A stretch of DNA of 64,000 bases from Chloroflexota bacterium (GTDB lineage: Bacteria > Chloroflexota > Anaerolineae > Anaerolineales > VGOW01), in contig VGOW01000005.1 of assembly GCA_016875735.1 (NCBI GenBank), positions 1 to 64,000 on the forward strand, in the 5' to 3' direction. The notes below the pieces were generated by a model. It had not been told where the DNA came from. It ran no database searches and saw only the letters and a program-made list of their open reading frames with translations. Within the stretch, counting starts at the first letter, position 1. The number at the start of each line of letters is the position of its first letter. This document shows, in pieces, positions 12,379-64,000 of this stretch. A program made the position numbers and the translations under genes.

Positions 12379-12843
12379 ATGTCGGGAGCCAATGAACTGC
12401 GTTCGCGCGTTCGCGCGCACGGCAAGCGGGTGACGCCCCAACGCCAACTCGTCCTCGATGCCATTCGGGCGGCGGGCGGCCATGTGACGACCAATGAAAT
12501 TTTCACCCACGTATCGGCGGCCGCTTCCAGCGTCAACCGGACGACGGTGTATCGCAATTTGGATTTTCTGTGCGAGATGCGGCTGGTGGTGGCAGCGCAG
12601 ATCGGCGGCAAAATGTATTACGAGATCGCCGGAGAGGAGCCGCATCATCACCTCGTGTGCCGCCACTGCGATTCGGTTGGCGAGATCAGCCATCGGACAG
12701 TGAAAGCCCTCTTTGATAAGATCGAACGCGAGCAGTCCTTTGTCGTAGATATGGATCACTTGGCGTTGTTTGGTTTGTGCGCCGAATGCCGCCATACGGT
12801 CAGCAAACCCAAACTCAGAACCCGGCGCAAGCGGGGCGGGTGA
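12379..12843 (+). CDS. Fur-family metal-responsive repressor
   Basis: The 154-aa protein has an N-terminal winged helix (KRVTPQRQLVLDAI, then TVYRNLDFLCE) and a dimerisation/metal domain. Cys pairs are C94/C97 (CRHC) and C134/C137 (CAEC), forming the structural zinc site; HHHLVC at 89-94 provides sensory-site histidines. It could be Fur, Zur or Nur. The neighbouring CbiMQO importer and the upstream TTGCAA palindrome favour nickel or cobalt sensing. However, the two CxxC pairs are more typical of Zur/Fur than of Streptomyces Nur. It is followed by cbiM after 20 nt. Confidence 0.9.
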   Translation: MSGANELRSRVRAHGKRVTPQRQLVLDAIRAAGGHVTTNEIFTHVSAAASSVNRTTVYRNLDFLCEMRLVVAAQIGGKMYYEIAGEEPHHHLVCRHCDSVGEISHRTVKALFDKIEREQSFVVDMDHLALFGLCAECRHTVSKPKLRTRRKRGG

Positions 12844-12863
12844 CTCTTTCTTTGGATGACGTT

Positions 12864-13826
12864 ATGAAACCCATCCTTCCTCTCTCTCCACCGCACTTGC
12901 ACATTCCCGATGGCTTTCTTTCCATCGGCGTCGCGCTGGTGGGATGGGCGTTGGCTATCGCAGTGGTGGGCTATGCACTACGGCAAACACGCGGCCAATT
13001 GGGCGACAGGCAAATCCCGTTGATGGGCGTGCTGGCCGCATTCATCTTCGCCGCGCAAGCCATCAACTTCCCGGTGGCCGGCGGCACGTCGGGGCATTTG
13101 CTCGGCGGCACGCTGGCGGCCGTTATCATGGGGCCATGGGCGGCGGCGCTCATCATGACCAGTGTGATCGGCGTTCAAGCGTTGGTGTTTCAAGACGGCG
13201 GTCTCGTGGCGTTGGGCTTCAACATTGTGAACATGGGCATTGTCACCGCGTTCACCGGACACCTCGTTTACAAATTCGTCAAGCGTCTGATGGGCGAAGG
13301 TCGTAACAGTTTGTTGATTGCTGGCGCAGTAGGCGCGTGGCTCTCGGTGATGGTGGGAGCGGCGGCTACCGCCGTTGAACTGGCGGCGTCGGGGACAACG
13401 CCTCTCGGCATTGCCCTGCCGGCGATGATGGGAGTTCATGCGTTGATCGGAATCGGCGAAGCGGCGATTACAGTGGGCGCATTGGCGTTCGTGTGGGCCG
13501 CTCGCCGCGATCTATTGAGCATTGGCGAGACGGCGCCCGCGCAGGCCGGAGCAGGTTGGGTGGCCGCCGGGCTGGGCATTGCGCTAGTCGTCGCCGTGTT
13601 TTCGTTTGCCGCCTCGCCCGACCCCGACGGATTGGAGCGTGTGGCCGCCGACAACGGCTTCATCACTGCCGCGCTCGATCCGATCTTCCGCGTGTTGCCG
13701 GATTACACCACTCCATTCATCGGCAACGAAATACTGTCGGGCACGATTGCTGTCGTCGTTGGCACGCTGGTTGTGTTTGCAGTGGCGTTCGCCGTTGCCC
13801 GGACGCAGCGCAAGGCCGTATCGTAA
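12864..13826 (+). CDS. cbiM: CbiM-type energy-coupling-factor substrate-binding permease with CbiN-like tail
   Basis: The 320-aa membrane protein is the substrate-specific component for cobalt or nickel uptake. HIPDGFLS near the N-terminus, INFPVAGGTSGHLLGG and GVQALVFQDGGLVALGFN are CbiM/NikM signatures. The C-terminal part (about 250-265, PDPDGLE) is a PDGLE domain, which replaces a separate CbiN. The family coordinates metal through Met1-His2. The ATG at 12864 would put 11 residues before the conserved LHIPDG; an in-frame TTG at 12897 would give exactly M-H-I-P-D-G, but without a visible ribosome-binding site. Confidence 0.93.
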   Translation: MKPILPLSPPHLHIPDGFLSIGVALVGWALAIAVVGYALRQTRGQLGDRQIPLMGVLAAFIFAAQAINFPVAGGTSGHLLGGTLAAVIMGPWAAALIMTSVIGVQALVFQDGGLVALGFNIVNMGIVTAFTGHLVYKFVKRLMGEGRNSLLIAGAVGAWLSVMVGAAATAVELAASGTTPLGIALPAMMGVHALIGIGEAAITVGALAFVWAARRDLLSIGETAPAQAGAGWVAAGLGIALVVAVFSFAASPDPDGLERVAADNGFITAALDPIFRVLPDYTTPFIGNEILSGTIAVVVGTLVVFAVAFAVARTQRKAVS

Positions 13827-57201: not shown

Positions 57202-58707
57202 TCATCTGCGGCGTGCGCGACGGTTGGGCGCGGAAACGGGTTTCGGTTCGGGGGGCGGCGGCGCGTGGGGGAGTTCGGCGTCGGCGGCCATTCCCGATCG
57301 GATGATGCGGCGAAGTTCGGAGTCGAGAATCGGATCGGTTTCGATGGGTGTGTATGCATCGAGTCGGCGCTCCACTTCCTCTTTCGCCCGCTGTTGAAGA
57401 GTCGAACCGCCGCCCTTCAGCCAGTTCTCGCGATTGTCGCGGTCGATCACGTGGCCGGGCAGATAAAGTTCCTGCGGCCAATGTTTGAGCGTGTGCTCGG
57501 CGGTGAGCAGGTGCTTCTCTTCGAGCAGATGCCGGGCGAGATCAACGGTGGGCACGTCGTCCTTCGGGGCGAACTCGCGGACGAAGTGCAGGGCTTGCCC
57601 GCACATCTCGTCGGCGAAAATTAATTTCTCGAGGCTGAACACGAGAACGTAATCGAGCATTCCCGGCCCGGAGACGGAATTCACTCCGGCCAGCGCGGCG
57701 AGCAGTGCGCTGCCGAAAATTTCGGCTCCGGCTTGCGCGTCGAGAAACTTTCCCTCACTCAGAGCCATGTATCCCTGCGTGGGCAGGCCGAGATATTTGG
57801 CGACTTGCACGTAGGCGGTGTCGAGATGCAGGGCTTCGATGGCGGCCATCGGCGACGACGATGTTTTCATATGAAAGGCGGCGGGCGCTCCGCCGAAGAG
57901 CACGGGCGTGCCGGGTTTGATGATCTGCGCCATCGTGAGTCCGGCGAGCACATCGGCGACGTGGAACACGGTGGCCCCGACGAGGGTGACGGGGGCGATG
58001 AGGCCCATGAGGGTGACGGGCACGATCTCGACCGGGATGCCGAACTCGATGCAGTCGAGCAGATTCTGGCACGAGTCTTCGCCGTAACGGAAGAAGCCGG
58101 TGGCGGTGACGGTGAAGATGGACATGGGCCGGGCGATGAGGTCGGCTTTATCGCGGCGGAACAACTGCATCATCTCGGCCATGCGCGGGGTGCCGTGCTC
58201 GGTGAATGCGCCGGAGACGACGGGCTTGAGCGAGTTGGCGAGGCAGAGATAGAGTCGCCAGGCGTCGGAGATTTGCGGCTCGATGTCGTTGGTGGAGAAG
58301 GCGGTGGCGAGGTAGGCAATGTTTTGCAGGCCGTCGGCGAGGCGGACGTATTCGACAAAGTCGTGAGTGGTGGCCGGGCGAGTGTGGCCGGTGCGATGGT
58401 CGAGCACTTTGAGGCCGCTGGAGCCGGGGACGAAGTGCACGCGGTCGCCGCCGAGATTGGCGTGCGGCCTCCCGTTCCGATCGAAGAGGACGATCTCGTG
58501 TGGAGCAGAAGCAACGGCGGCATCCACCGTGTCGGGCGGGAGGAGGATGCGTTCGCCAGCCGAATCCAATTTCAATCCGTGATCCAGCAGTCGCGCTCGC
58601 AGAGCGGGGCCGCGCACTTCCACGCCGATCTCGGCCAAGATGCGTTTGGCTTCGGCCAGGAGGGTGGGGATCATGTCGTCGGAGATGATTTTGAGATGCG
58701 GTCTCAT
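57202..58707 (-). CDS. Third MttB-family methyltransferase, no pyrrolysine
   Basis: The 501-aa protein is a more divergent MttB-superfamily member ([20 protein letters not shown] in place of the YGNFT motif, [21 protein letters not shown] at the C-terminal part). It has no in-frame UAG. Its C-terminus is Arg/Pro-rich. The substrate and the corrinoid partner are unknown. It is alone on its strand, with a possible TATGAT box 31 nt upstream. The start MRPHLKII at 58707 is preferred over a codon 36 nt upstream. Confidence 0.88.
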
Positions 58708-58957
58708 GGCGGTCTCTCCCGAGTCGTTGGATAGCGCAATCATACTTGCCCGGCCTCAAAGAGCAAGGGGCGCCGCTGCCCGGAATCGGCGTGGTTTACG
58801 GAACTTTTACGCGCGGGGTGTCGGCGCCTCCCGAAATCAGAGCGTTGCGCGAGAATCACGGTTTTGCAACGGAAGACACACACATTTTTTACTGATGTCG
58901 CGTGACATTTGCAGTAAGATGTCGCCAATAAGTACGTTGGCCGTGATCCTGACTGCA

Positions 58958-59210: not shown

Positions 59211-60038
59211 TCACAACTGAGTGCGCATCTTCCACAATTCGGGGAACAAAACGACATCGAGCATCCGGCGCAGGTATGAAACGCCCGCCGTGCCGCCGGT
59301 GCCCTGCTTAAAGCCAATGACTCGCTCGACAGTGGTAACATGCCGGAAGCGCCACTGCCGGGATAAGTCTTCGAGGTCGAGCAGCTCCTCCCCTAACTCA
59401 TACAAATCCCAATACTTCTCCGTATCGCGGTAAACAGACAGCCAAGCCTGTTCCACTGAGTCGTGCGGTGTGTAAGGCCGCGCCCAATCGCGGTCGAGAA
59501 CTTCGGGCGCGATGGCGAAGCCGCGCCGCGCCAGCAATTTGAGCGTTTCATCGTACAGCGATGGCGCGCGCAGTTCGGCCTCCAGCATCGAATACAGCTC
59601 GGGGCGATGCTCGTGGGGTTTCATCATCACTTCGCTTTTGTTGCCCAGCACAAATTCCAGCGCCCGATACTGGTATGACTGAAAGCCCGACGAGTTGCCG
59701 AGAAAGGGGCGGATGAGACTGTACTCGCTCGGCGTGAGCGTGCTGAGCACGTTCCACCCGCTGATCAATTGCTCCATCACTCGCGAGGCGCGCGCGGTCA
59801 TCTTGAATGCGGGCGCGAGGCGATCTTGCTTCACGTGCTCGCGCGCCTGCGCCAGCTCGTGCAGTGCCAGCTTGAGCCACAGCTCGCTGACGTGATGGAT
59901 GACGATGAACAGCAGTTCATTGGGGTCGGGCGAGAGCGGATGTTGCGCCGAAAGAATTTCGTCGAGATGCAGATAGTCGCCGTAGCTCATGGCTTTGCTG
60001 AAGTCGAGCTTTGCGCCGTAGTCGTGTGGCTGAGTCAT
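59211..60038 (-). CDS. kynA: Tryptophan 2,3-dioxygenase
   Basis: The 275-aa haem enzyme opens the indole ring of tryptophan to N-formylkynurenine. It shows [41 protein letters not shown] (haem/substrate region), [16 protein letters not shown] and the C-terminal [23 protein letters not shown]. It is divergently transcribed from kynU, sharing a 106-nt promoter region. No kynurenine formamidase gene is in the window. Confidence 0.95.
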
Positions 60039-60144: not shown

Positions 60145-61407
60145 ATGCGCCTCGACAGCGATTACGCCCGTCAACTCGATTCGCAAGACCCGCTCGCCCG
60201 CTTCCGCGACGAATTTGTAATCGACGATCCGACTCTGATCTACCTCGACGGCAACTCGCTGGGCAGGCTTCCCAAACGCGCCGCCACTCGCGTGAAAGAA
60301 ACGCTCGATCATGAATGGGGCCGCCGACTCATTCGCGGCTGGGGCGAAGGCTGGTACACTGCGCCGCAAAGGGTGGGCGGCAAAATCGCGCAGATCATCG
60401 GCGCGCGCCCCGACGAAGTGGCAGTGACGGATTCCACGTCGGTCAACTTTTTCAAATTGGTGATGGCCGCGCTCGAAGCCCGGCCGGGCCGCCGCAAAAT
60501 CGTCACCGATGATCTCAACTTTCCAACGGACTTGTACCTTTTGCAGGGCGCGGCCAAGTTGGCCGGCGGCGGCTGTCGGGTGGAAGTCGTTCACTCCGCC
60601 GACGGCCTCACCGTTGCCAATGAGGCATTGGCCGAAGCCATCGACTCAGACACCGCGCTCGTCACCCTCACTCACACCGCATTCAAAAGCGGATACGTTT
60701 ACGACATGCCCGCTATCACCGAATCCGCTCACCGCGCGGGCGCGCTCGTGCTGTGGGACTTGAGCCATTCGGCGGGTGCGATGCCGCTGGCGATGAACGA
60801 ATGCAACATCGATCTCGCTGTGGGCTGCACTTACAAATATCTCAACGGCGGCCCCGGCTCGCCCGCGTTTCTTTTCGTGCGCCGCGATTTGCAGGATGGG
60901 CTTCGGAGTCCGATCTGGGGATGGTTCGGGCAGAAGGCGCAATTCGAGATGGGACTCGACTACAACCCCGCGCCGGGCATCAACCGTTTTCTTGCCGGGA
61001 CGCCGACGATGCTATCGCTGGCGGCCATCGAGCCGGGCGTCGAACTTCTTCTCGAAGCGGGCATGGATCGCCTGCGGGCCAAATCGGTGGCGCAAACCGA
61101 ATACCTCATTGCCTTGTGGGAGGCGATGCTCGAACCGCTGGGCGTGGACCTCCACTCCCCGCGCGATCCGGCACAGCGCGGCTCGCACGTGTCGCTCGGC
61201 CACCCCGAAGGTTTGCGAATCGATCTCGCGCTCATCGAAGAGATGAACGTCATCCCCGACTTCCGCTACCCCGACAACATCCGTCTCGGCGTCGCGCCCC
61301 TCTACACCACCTTCGCCGACATCCACGAAGCCGTCGCGCGCATCCGCCGCGTCATCGAAGAACGACTCTACGAGAAATACTCTGCCCATCGGCCCGAGGT
61401 CACTTGA
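60145..61407 (+). CDS. kynU: Kynureninase
   Basis: PLP enzyme cleaving kynurenine to anthranilate and alanine. The 420-aa length is typical. Motifs include IYLDGNSLGRLPKRA near the N-terminus, FPTDLYLLQGAAK, LWDLSHSAGAMPL and the PLP lysine K231 in TYKYLNGGPGSPAFLFV. It starts the plus-strand run that continues to the CoA ligase, although a palindromic repeat separates it from the monooxygenase. Confidence 0.96.
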   Translation: MRLDSDYARQLDSQDPLARFRDEFVIDDPTLIYLDGNSLGRLPKRAATRVKETLDHEWGRRLIRGWGEGWYTAPQRVGGKIAQIIGARPDEVAVTDSTSVNFFKLVMAALEARPGRRKIVTDDLNFPTDLYLLQGAAKLAGGGCRVEVVHSADGLTVANEALAEAIDSDTALVTLTHTAFKSGYVYDMPAITESAHRAGALVLWDLSHSAGAMPLAMNECNIDLAVGCTYKYLNGGPGSPAFLFVRRDLQDGLRSPIWGWFGQKAQFEMGLDYNPAPGINRFLAGTPTMLSLAAIEPGVELLLEAGMDRLRAKSVAQTEYLIALWEAMLEPLGVDLHSPRDPAQRGSHVSLGHPEGLRIDLALIEEMNVIPDFRYPDNIRLGVAPLYTTFADIHEAVARIRRVIEERLYEKYSAHRPEVT

Positions 61408-61424
61408 GATAGATTGCATGTGCT

Positions 61425-61500
61425 TTTGCCGCCGAGATCGCGGAGCGCGCAGAGGCCGCTTCTGAAAACTCTGCGGGCTCTGTGTCTCTGCGGTGAAAAT
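61425..61500. repeat. Dispersed palindromic repeat, CGCAGAG family
   Basis: TGCCGCCGAGATCGCGGAGCG is followed by an arm ending TCTGTGTCTCTGCGGTGAAA. It lies between kynU and the monooxygenase gene. Confidence 0.7.
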
Positions 61501-61535
61501 AAATCCTGATATTGCTCAAGAGAAGGAATCACTTG

Positions 61536-63083
61536 ATGAAGATCAACATCATTGGCGGCGGCCCCGCCGGACTCTATTTTTCAATCCTCATGAAGAAGCT
61601 CGATCCGTCTCACGAAATCACCGTGATCGAGCGCGACGGCCCTAACGACACCTTCGGCTGGGGCGTCGTCTTTTCCGAAACCACCCTCGACAACTTTGCC
61701 CAATACGACCGCGAGACTTACGATGAGTTCGTCAAGGCTTGCCAGATGCGAAACTATGTTGTGGTGCGGCACAAAGGCGAAACCATTCACATCGGCGGCA
61801 ACCCCATTGCCGGAGTGGCCCGGCTCCAGTGGCTGCAAATCCTTCACCGCCGCTGTGAGCAGCTCGGCGTCAATCTTCGCTTTCACACCAACATCACCAA
61901 CCCCGCCGATTACCGCGACTGCGATCTGCTTGTGGGCGCGGACGGCGCGAACAGCCTTGTTCGCAAAACCTACGAGTCGTTTTTCATGCCCTCCATCGAA
62001 GTGCGGCAGAACAAATACATTTGGCTCGGCGCCGAGCAGCCGTTCGACGGGCTAACGATGATCTTCAAACAAGCCGAGGCCGGGCTGTTCATTTCGCATT
62101 CGTACAAGTTCAGCCCGGCGCACAGCACGTTCATCATCGAATGCCCGCCCGAAACGTGGCTGAAGGCCGGGTTCGAGAAAATGTCGGACGACGAAACGTG
62201 CAGATACTTGGCTGATGTGTTTCGCGACGATCTCGGCGGGCGGCCACTGCTCGCCAACAACTTCGTGCGCTGGGTCAACTTCCCCCTCATTCGCAACCGC
62301 CGTTGGCATCACCAAAACGTTGTGCTGATGGGCGACGCCCTGCACACCGCGCACTTTTCCATCGGATCGGGCACCAAACTGGCGATGGAAGATTCGATTG
62401 CGCTGGCCGATTCGTTTTCGCGGCGCGGCACGGTGGAAGCCGCCTTGCCCAATTACCAGCGGACGCGCAAGCCGGTGGTGGATCGGTTTCAGGCGGCGGC
62501 GGTGCGCAGTCTGTCGTGGCTCGAAGACGTGAAAGATCATTTGCATCTCGATCCGATTCCCTTCACCTACAAATTGATGACGCGGAGCAAACGAGTCGGC
62601 TTCAACCGGATCCAACGGGCCGACCCGGAGTTCGCGTCCCGATACGACGAATGGCGCAAAGCCCAAGCGCAGGCGGGTCCCATTCCCGATGAGTTTCTCG
62701 ATCTGTTTCAGAAAAAGACGTTTGCGCATCTCGCCACGCTCATGCCCGACGGCACGCCGCACGTCACTTCGGTGTGGGTGGATTACGACGGCCAGCACAT
62801 CATCATCAATTCAGCGCGCGGGCGGTTGAAAGACAAGAATATGGAGCGGCGGCGGCACGTCGCCATCGAGATCACCGACCCCGACAACCCGGATCGGTTT
62901 GTGGCTGTGCGCGGGCCGGTGGTGGCGATCACCGAAGAGGGCGCGGACGCGCATCTCGATAGACTGGCGCAGAGGTATCTCGAAAAGGATAGTTACCCGC
63001 CGAGTATGCGCTTCCCCGGCGAAGTGCGCTGTCTCTACAAGATCGAGCCGAAGCACGTGACGGTGTGGAATCCGTTTGGATAA
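61536..63083 (+). CDS. Anthraniloyl-CoA-type FAD monooxygenase fused to a PPOX/F420-type flavin-binding domain
   Basis: Residues 1-378 of 515 form a class A FAD monooxygenase: MKINIIGGGPAGLYFSILMK, FGWGVVFSETTLDNF and GDALHTAHFSIGSGTKLAMEDSIAL. These match the N-terminal half of 2-aminobenzoyl-CoA monooxygenase/reductase and salicylyl-CoA 5-hydroxylase. Residues about 381-515 are a complete pyridoxamine-phosphate-oxidase-like split-barrel domain (IPDEFLDLF, FAHLATLMPDGTPHVTSVWVD, ARGRLKDKNMERRRHVAIEITD), of the group often assigned to F420 or flavin. The Old Yellow Enzyme-type reductase half is absent. The frame is unbroken across the junction. The ATG at 61536 has an AGAAGGAA ribosome-binding site. 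It presumably oxygenates 2-aminobenzoyl-CoA; the tail may supply or bind a reduced cofactor. Confidence 0.85.
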   Translation: MKINIIGGGPAGLYFSILMKKLDPSHEITVIERDGPNDTFGWGVVFSETTLDNFAQYDRETYDEFVKACQMRNYVVVRHKGETIHIGGNPIAGVARLQWLQILHRRCEQLGVNLRFHTNITNPADYRDCDLLVGADGANSLVRKTYESFFMPSIEVRQNKYIWLGAEQPFDGLTMIFKQAEAGLFISHSYKFSPAHSTFIIECPPETWLKAGFEKMSDDETCRYLADVFRDDLGGRPLLANNFVRWVNFPLIRNRRWHHQNVVLMGDALHTAHFSIGSGTKLAMEDSIALADSFSRRGTVEAALPNYQRTRKPVVDRFQAAAVRSLSWLEDVKDHLHLDPIPFTYKLMTRSKRVGFNRIQRADPEFASRYDEWRKAQAQAGPIPDEFLDLFQKKTFAHLATLMPDGTPHVTSVWVDYDGQHIIINSARGRLKDKNMERRRHVAIEITDPDNPDRFVAVRGPVVAITEEGADAHLDRLAQRYLEKDSYPPSMRFPGEVRCLYKIEPKHVTVWNPFG

Positions 63084-63110: not shown

Positions 63111-63184
63111 TTATCGCAGAGTTCGCTGAGAACGCTGAGATTCTTTTTGTTTTCTCCGCGAACTCTGCGCGCTCGGCGGTGAAA
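63111..63184. repeat. Dispersed palindromic repeat, CGCAGAG family
   Basis: TTATCGCAGAGTTCGCTGAGAA pairs imperfectly with TTCTCCGCGAACTCTGCGCG and GGCGGTGAAA. It lies between the monooxygenase and ridA-like genes. Confidence 0.7.
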
Positions 63185-63224
63185 TGAAGCCAAGAATCAC
63201 GAACCCCCGCTGAGGTCAATGTAT

Positions 63225-63644
63225 ATGCCCAAGACGATTGTCAACCCATCTTCGCTTGCCAAACCTTCCGGCTACTCCAACGGCTTCATGATCGACGGCG
63301 GGCGATTGCTTGTGCTGGCCGGGCAGACCGGAATGGACGTGACGGGCCGCATCGCCAGCCCCGGCGACATCGTGGCCCAGTTTCGCCAAGCGCTCTCGAA
63401 CTTGCAGGCCGTCATCGCCGAGGCGGGCGGGGCGATGACCGACATTGTGAAGTTGAATATTTTTGTGACGGAGCGCGACGCCTACAAAACCAATCTCAAA
63501 CCCATCGGCGAAGTCTATCGTTCGTTCTTTGGCCGCCACTACCCGGCGATGACTCTGGTGGAAGTGAAGCGGTTGTTCGACGACGAGGCGATGATTGAAA
63601 TTGAAGGTTGGGCGGTGATTGGCGGGCAATTGATTTCTGAATAG
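63225..63644 (+). CDS. RidA-family enamine/imine deaminase
   Basis: The 139-aa protein belongs to the RidA/YjgF family: LVLAGQTGMDVTGRIASPGDIVAQFRQALSNLQAVIAEAGG and the C-terminal PAMTLVEVKRLFDDEAMIEIEGWAVI. RidA proteins hydrolyse enamines and imines; related 2-aminomuconate deaminases work in anthranilate and kynurenine breakdown. In this cluster a substrate could be the enamine group of the monooxygenase product. The family's Arg in the VEVxRL/CVEVxxL strand is replaced by Lys in VEVKRL, followed by Arg. An ATG at 63219 is a possible alternative start. Confidence 0.85.
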   Translation: MPKTIVNPSSLAKPSGYSNGFMIDGGRLLVLAGQTGMDVTGRIASPGDIVAQFRQALSNLQAVIAEAGGAMTDIVKLNIFVTERDAYKTNLKPIGEVYRSFFGRHYPAMTLVEVKRLFDDEAMIEIEGWAVIGGQLISE

Positions 63645-63754: not shown

Positions 63755-64000
63755 ATGAAAGCAACGGATCTTCCACTGTATTACAACGCCATCGATATTT
63801 TGGAGCGCAACCTGGCCGGGCGCGCAAACAAGACGGCCATCTTCTCGGCGGAACGGGAGATGACTTTTGGGCAGGTTGCCGCCGAAGCCAATCAGGTGGC
63901 GAATGCCCTGCGGCGGCTCGATGTGCGGCCCGGCGAACGGGTGGGCATCCTCAGCCCCGACTGTTCGCAATGGGTCACCTCGTTCTTTGGCATCGTCAAA
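63755..64000 (+). CDS. Aryl-CoA ligase (2-aminobenzoate/benzoate-CoA ligase type), N-terminal part
   Basis: The 82 residues before the window ends show YNAIDILERNLAGRANKTAIF, MTFGQVAAEANQVANALRRL and GERVGILSPDCSQWVTSFFG. These match the N-terminus of AMP-forming benzoate-CoA and 2-aminobenzoate-CoA ligases (ANL superfamily). The catalytic P-loop lies beyond the window. A GGAGGCGG ribosome-binding site precedes the ATG. By context it would activate anthranilate made by kynureninase. Confidence 0.8.
   Translation, partial: MKATDLPLYYNAIDILERNLAGRANKTAIFSAEREMTFGQVAAEANQVANALRRLDVRPGERVGILSPDCSQWVTSFFGIVK

Follow-up and report, generated by a model that had tools for sequence, protein, structure and literature searches.

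A flavin monooxygenase fused to an FDOR-B-type split barrel points to a possible new enzyme architecture for anthranilate breakdown in Chloroflexota

The 2-aminobenzoyl-CoA monooxygenase/reductase of Azoarcus evansii, an enzyme of the PRK08255 type, joins an N-terminal FAD monooxygenase (MOX) to a C-terminal half of the Old Yellow Enzyme (OYE) type, and its product is 2-amino-5-oxocyclohex-1-ene-1-carbonyl-CoA (PMC4539516). Single-domain aryl-CoA hydroxylases lack the reductase half and have other gene neighbours. The F420H2-dependent reductases of the FDOR-B group (MSMEG_3380, Rv1155, OxyR/CtcM) are stand-alone proteins of the PPOX family that reduce C=C and imine bonds, and their chemistry has been described chiefly in actinobacterial detoxification and in the synthesis of antibiotics. 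In tetracycline biosynthesis, the flavin-dependent hydroxylase OxyS gives rise to an enone, whose C5a-C11a bond is reduced by the FDOR-B enzyme OxyR in the very next step (PMC8498797, PMC10949242).

Here, we have analysed a stretch of 64,000 nucleotides from a Chloroflexota bacterium (the window) and found a gene in which a MOX half is fused to a PPOX split barrel. The fusion shares with the Azoarcus enzyme the N-terminal FAD monooxygenase, the accompanying set of SDR, ECH, RidA, ACAD and ligase genes and the expected net reaction, but its second half is a split barrel of ∼135 residues in place of an OYE of ∼350 residues, and its MOX half lies in another clade. With the FDOR-B reductases it shares the PPOX family, the R/K/N residues of the cofactor site and a plausible ene-reduction after a flavin hydroxylase; unlike them, its PPOX domain is joined to the hydroxylase and found in aromatic catabolism. 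OxyS and OxyR, in contrast to the fusion, are two separate proteins acting on a polyketide without a CoA thioester. Its place in the operon, where related bacteria have a different reductase, suggests that the fusion is a novel arrangement for breaking down the ring of anthranilate. Our search of the literature on F420 together with anthranilate or 2-aminobenzoyl-CoA returned nothing relevant, and no paper with the MOX-PPOX architecture was found.

The fusion gene (61536-63083, forward strand) is an open frame of 515 residues from ATG to stop; an alternative TTG start at 61512 would lengthen the protein by eight residues. The MOX half comprises residues 1-372 (61536-62651, forward strand) and the split barrel residues 383-515 (62682-63080, forward strand). 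In Pfam, the fusion protein matches FAD_binding_3 (residues 3-317) and PNPOx_N (residues 383-509), and has no match to the OYE domain PF00724. Among the NCBIfam models, PRK08255 (salicylyl-CoA 5-hydroxylase/oxidoreductase) matches with 445 bits over positions 1-390 of its 768, that is, its N-terminal part only; because the OYE half is absent, the cut-off of 1078 for the whole model is not reached. TIGR03618, the Rv1155 model of F420-dependent PPOX proteins, matches the fusion with 93 bits (cut-off 79) and the PPOX domain alone with 97.3 bits (cut-off 79.05). No NCBIfam model among the matches listed covers the whole fusion protein. The MOX half carries the motifs GGGPAG, DG (ADGANS) and GDALHTAHFSIGSGTKLAMED, and is 39-48% identical to the N-terminal halves of MOX-OYE enzymes; the IPDEFLDLF motif is also found in the fusion protein. 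The original prediction of one unbroken frame, which joins a class A FAD monooxygenase with GDALHTAHFSIGSGTKLAMED to a PPOX-like domain with IPDEFLDLF, is borne out. An AlphaFold2 model of the monomer, built from 49 alignment rows, has two confident domains (mean pLDDT 91, pTM 0.76). A Foldseek search with the whole model gave VioD as best matches, which ranks the MOX half first; this ranking bears on the MOX half only and is uninformative on the PPOX half.

We searched the genus, 400 genomes from the phylum and 396 from the class, and found the exact architecture in twelve genomes from three families, all in one Chloroflexota class. Eleven of the fusions are full-length. That of the genus member G400 (L003) is 85% identical to the window's and has the same frame over the join, while the partial one, in G318, is on a contig that spans residues 226-515 including the join and is 88% identical. 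In the nine further genomes the join is in frame and the MOX half is 55-72% identical to the window's. A further genome of the genus (G401) has the first 107 residues only, at a contig end. Of the 31 genomes in the class sample that have the MOX half, 11 have it fused to PPOX. A stop codon or shift between the halves, named at the outset as what would refute the prediction, was not seen, and the identical frame in twelve genomes rules out an assembly artefact or a frameshift. Recent decay of one half is ruled out by dN/dS (NG86) between the window and its 85% identical relative L003. The values are 0.078 in MOX, 0.067 in PPOX and 0.126 in the linker of 17 residues, which means that purifying selection acts as strongly on the one half as on the other (dN/dS about 0.07).

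No MOX-PPOX fusion was among the plasmid matches listed, and only one of the 225 plasmid records covered 80% of the query. This record is a single-domain MOX of Variovorax, with a match running beyond the gene; the remaining ones listed are either MOX-OYE proteins or restricted to the MOX half. Stand-alone relatives of the PPOX domain showed no association with anthranilate genes (L004-L008, L063-L067), and therefore add no Rosetta-stone support.

How could the fusion have arisen? In trees of the MOX half, all fusions form one clade (support 100/98 and 100/99), whose sister (100/99) consists not of the OYE-fused enzymes but of single-domain, OYE-less MOX from Chloroflexota and Variovorax (L043-L045 and L169). 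The fusion MOX falls outside this single-domain clade and, unlike its members, carries PPOX. One further candidate for a single-domain MOX, L046, was dropped as its gene is cut by a contig end. The members of the sister clade are putative salicylyl-CoA hydroxylases. The PPOX halves of the fusions likewise form one clade (96/84). Given this sister relationship, no OYE half was swapped out of the same polypeptide. The simplest history would be that PPOX was fused once to a hydroxylase lacking OYE, with MOX-OYE being displaced at the operon level and not by domain exchange.

The gene neighbourhood agrees with the anthranilate context that was predicted originally. In the window, the fusion gene follows that for kynureninase, which makes anthranilate (60145-61407, forward strand; TIGR01814 285.7 bits, cut-off 246.4), and precedes a RidA-family enamine/imine deaminase (63219-63644, forward strand; PF01042) and then a gene of the aryl(benzoate)-CoA ligase family (63755-64000, forward strand). 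The first 82 residues of the ligase are in the window, and the full gene encodes 515 residues (L038, 756-2303); its homologue in G318 matches TIGR02262 with 562 bits (cut-off 375). Tryptophan 2,3-dioxygenase (TDO) is encoded divergently upstream (59211-60038, reverse strand; TIGR03036 425 bits, cut-off 391). TDO and kynureninase adjoin the fusion in most relatives, as they do in the window.

Comparison with the MOX-OYE operons that other Chloroflexota (e.g. L072, L074-L079) and Paroceanicella carry shows that the two operon types are equivalent. The MOX-OYE operons contain MOX-OYE, SDR, ECH, RidA, ACAD and in part a ligase; in loci of the family f118 (L140-L142) the genes run in the order MOX-PPOX, SDR, ECH, RidA, ACAD and CoA ligase, and those for kynureninase and TDO are close by. 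RidA is thus common to both types, and SDR, ECH, RidA and ACAD of the closest MOX-OYE operons are 51-72% identical to their homologues in the MOX-PPOX operons. In the f118 operon the PPOX domain occupies the place of the OYE half, and so it does in the family f122, with rearrangements. Queries with three OYE halves and with the separate OYE described below found no OYE in L134-L142, and there is none at the f122 loci. In the window genome, the SDR, ECH, RidA, ACAD and ligase set is spread over contigs C5 and C4. The replacement of OYE by PPOX that was first proposed thus holds for the position in the operon in these two families, but not as a swap within one polypeptide.

By analogy, the best-supported reading is that the fusion would act as a fused OxyS/OxyR-like pair on anthraniloyl-CoA, with putative substrate, product and cofactor. 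We lean towards a bifunctional anthraniloyl-CoA 5-hydroxylase/ene-reductase, in which the substrate, the position of hydroxylation, the bond reduced and the cofactor are predicted from sequence and context. Kynureninase would supply anthranilate, and the neighbouring ligase would convert it to 2-aminobenzoyl-CoA. The MOX half, using FAD, NAD(P)H and O2, would hydroxylate C5 to give 5-hydroxyanthraniloyl-CoA or its keto-dienone tautomer. Judging from the structures, conversion of the keto tautomer to the known product would require hydride addition to a cyclohexadienone. The PPOX half with F420H2, or possibly a flavin, would then transfer hydride to the conjugated enone to form 2-amino-5-oxocyclohex-1-ene-1-carbonyl-CoA. 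Enzymes of the FDOR B1 class are among the most active FDORs, and the panel tested included cyclohexenones (PMC5449967). RidA, which may hydrolyse the 2-amino-enone product, would then, together with SDR, ECH and ACAD, bring about deamination and ring opening.

More tentatively, and with somewhat less than even confidence, the fusion could be an F420H2-dependent dearomatising monooxygenase/reductase of aerobic tryptophan/anthranilate breakdown, a flavin hydroxylase with a deazaflavin split barrel, that arose separately from the OYE-fused enzyme and took its place in the same operon. If so, one and the same two-step dearomatisation of a CoA-activated aromatic would have been assembled twice, from unrelated reductases, and FDOR-B (F420-type) chemistry would enter carbon catabolism in Chloroflexota. 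The fusion would then also be a natural oxygenase and ene-reductase on a single chain, which might be useful for biocatalysis.

Which cofactor would the PPOX half use? By its sequence, it belongs to the F420-dependent FDOR-B group: its profile matches are MSMEG_3380, Rv1155, Rv2991 and Rv2074, and R430, K432 and N435 of the fusion align with R55, K57 and N60, which belong to the F420 site of Rv1155 (PMC12942459). All three residues are invariant in the 11 fusions, and the corresponding arginine and lysine in all 23 aligned PPOX sequences. H27, R30, W77 and Y79 of Rv1155 are not kept in the fusions; H27 and R30 are not kept in MSMEG_3380 either, a protein annotated in the PDB as FMN-binding.

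The earlier proposal that the split barrel could bind flavin or F420H2 is favoured by this family membership and by the presence of CofC, CofD and CofE, along with NpdG, in the window genome. The F420 synthesis genes were found in part: no Fo synthase (CofG/CofH) scored over the cut-off in 14 genomes, with CofG searched in the genus only, where one fragment was found in G400, and CofD is absent from three f118 fusion genomes (G664, G671 and G533; 93-96% complete). F420 supply is thus not demonstrable for all fusion-bearing organisms. These two gaps would fit a variant, compatible with an ene-reductase role, in which the PPOX half performs ring reduction as an FMN or other flavin reductase without F420. 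We regard this variant as possible but rather unlikely, given the match to TIGR03618, the R/K/N residues, the Cof genes and NpdG of the window genome, and CofD in three genomes of the genus and in five of the six f122 genomes. From these genes, F420 is likely to be present in f122 as well as in the window's genus, and Fo may come from uptake or from a divergent synthase. In f118, where the fusion occurs without CofD, the cofactor may differ. The F420 cluster of the window genome (L039, contig C76, 7930-13045) contains NpdG, CofE, PPOX, FbiB-C-like, CofD, CofC and LLM genes, with a paralogue of the fusion's PPOX sitting between CofE and FbiB-C/CofD/CofC.

A separate OYE is found in the window's genus and could perform ring reduction there. 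In G318 (L041) its gene is directly behind the fusion, between the fusion and SDR; in the window genome it is in a second, paralogous operon, OYE-SDR-ECH-ACAD (L061, contig C4), and in G400 (contig C56) it accompanies SDR and a ligase. The latter two OYEs are 66-67% identical to that of G318. This arrangement, together with the strong reduction of quinones by FDORs (PMC5449967), would suit a role of the PPOX half in reducing or guarding against a reactive by-product, such as the quinone imine of 5-hydroxyanthraniloyl-CoA, while the ring is reduced elsewhere, e.g. by the separate OYE. We consider this role improbable: the f118 and f122 loci have no OYE, no near relative of the separate OYE was found elsewhere in the genomes of these families, and the separate OYE is only 27-30% identical to the fused OYE halves and, in the window genome, belongs to the second operon. 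The separate OYE in L041 (6027-7535) has ∼130 extra C-terminal residues that look fibronectin type III-like, with a weak NCBIfam match to an exoglucanase. At the end of the OYE-SDR-ECH-ACAD operon in L061 is a CoA-ligase copy in two pieces, comprising the first half of the protein only (12581-13323), and transporter permease genes follow.

Two-component flavin monooxygenases exist, and the physical fusion of the halves might suggest that PPOX is a built-in reductase from which the FAD in MOX receives its electrons. This part of the original prediction is not supported and we judge it highly unlikely: MOX keeps the class A DG motif ADGANS, associated with direct use of NAD(P)H (one of 11 has AHGVNS), its OYE-fused and single-domain relatives require no such partner, and the pathway in f118 and f122 would be left without ring reduction. 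Another substrate, such as salicyloyl-CoA, with PPOX as a dimerisation module, would be in keeping with the sister MOX clade, which is single-domain and in Variovorax adjoins an AMP-binding protein and a thioesterase, genes that could serve a salicylyl-CoA/gentisate route. This reading deserves very little credence, as kynureninase and TDO adjoin the fusion gene, RidA suits an amino substrate, and the PPOX domain is under purifying selection with invariant cofactor-site residues.

Several other features were observed near the fusion or in relatives. Beyond TDO, the window contains a gene of the trimethylamine methyltransferase (MTTB) family (57202-58743, reverse strand), which scores 278 bits against a cut-off of 525 for the MttB equivalog. 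On two haloarchaeal plasmids (L166, 8132-11157; L167, 8063-11151), the MOX-OYE gene is overlapped at its start by a gene for an LLM-class oxidoreductase; the Chloroflexota genome G244 (L046, 1-2015) has an LLM-like frame in the same place before a MOX gene. The motif CTCTGCGGTGAAA occurs at eight dispersed sites with at most one mismatch, compared with 0.1 expected by chance, and looks like an intergenic repeat family; two of the sites (61486-61498 and 63172-63184) flank the fusion gene.
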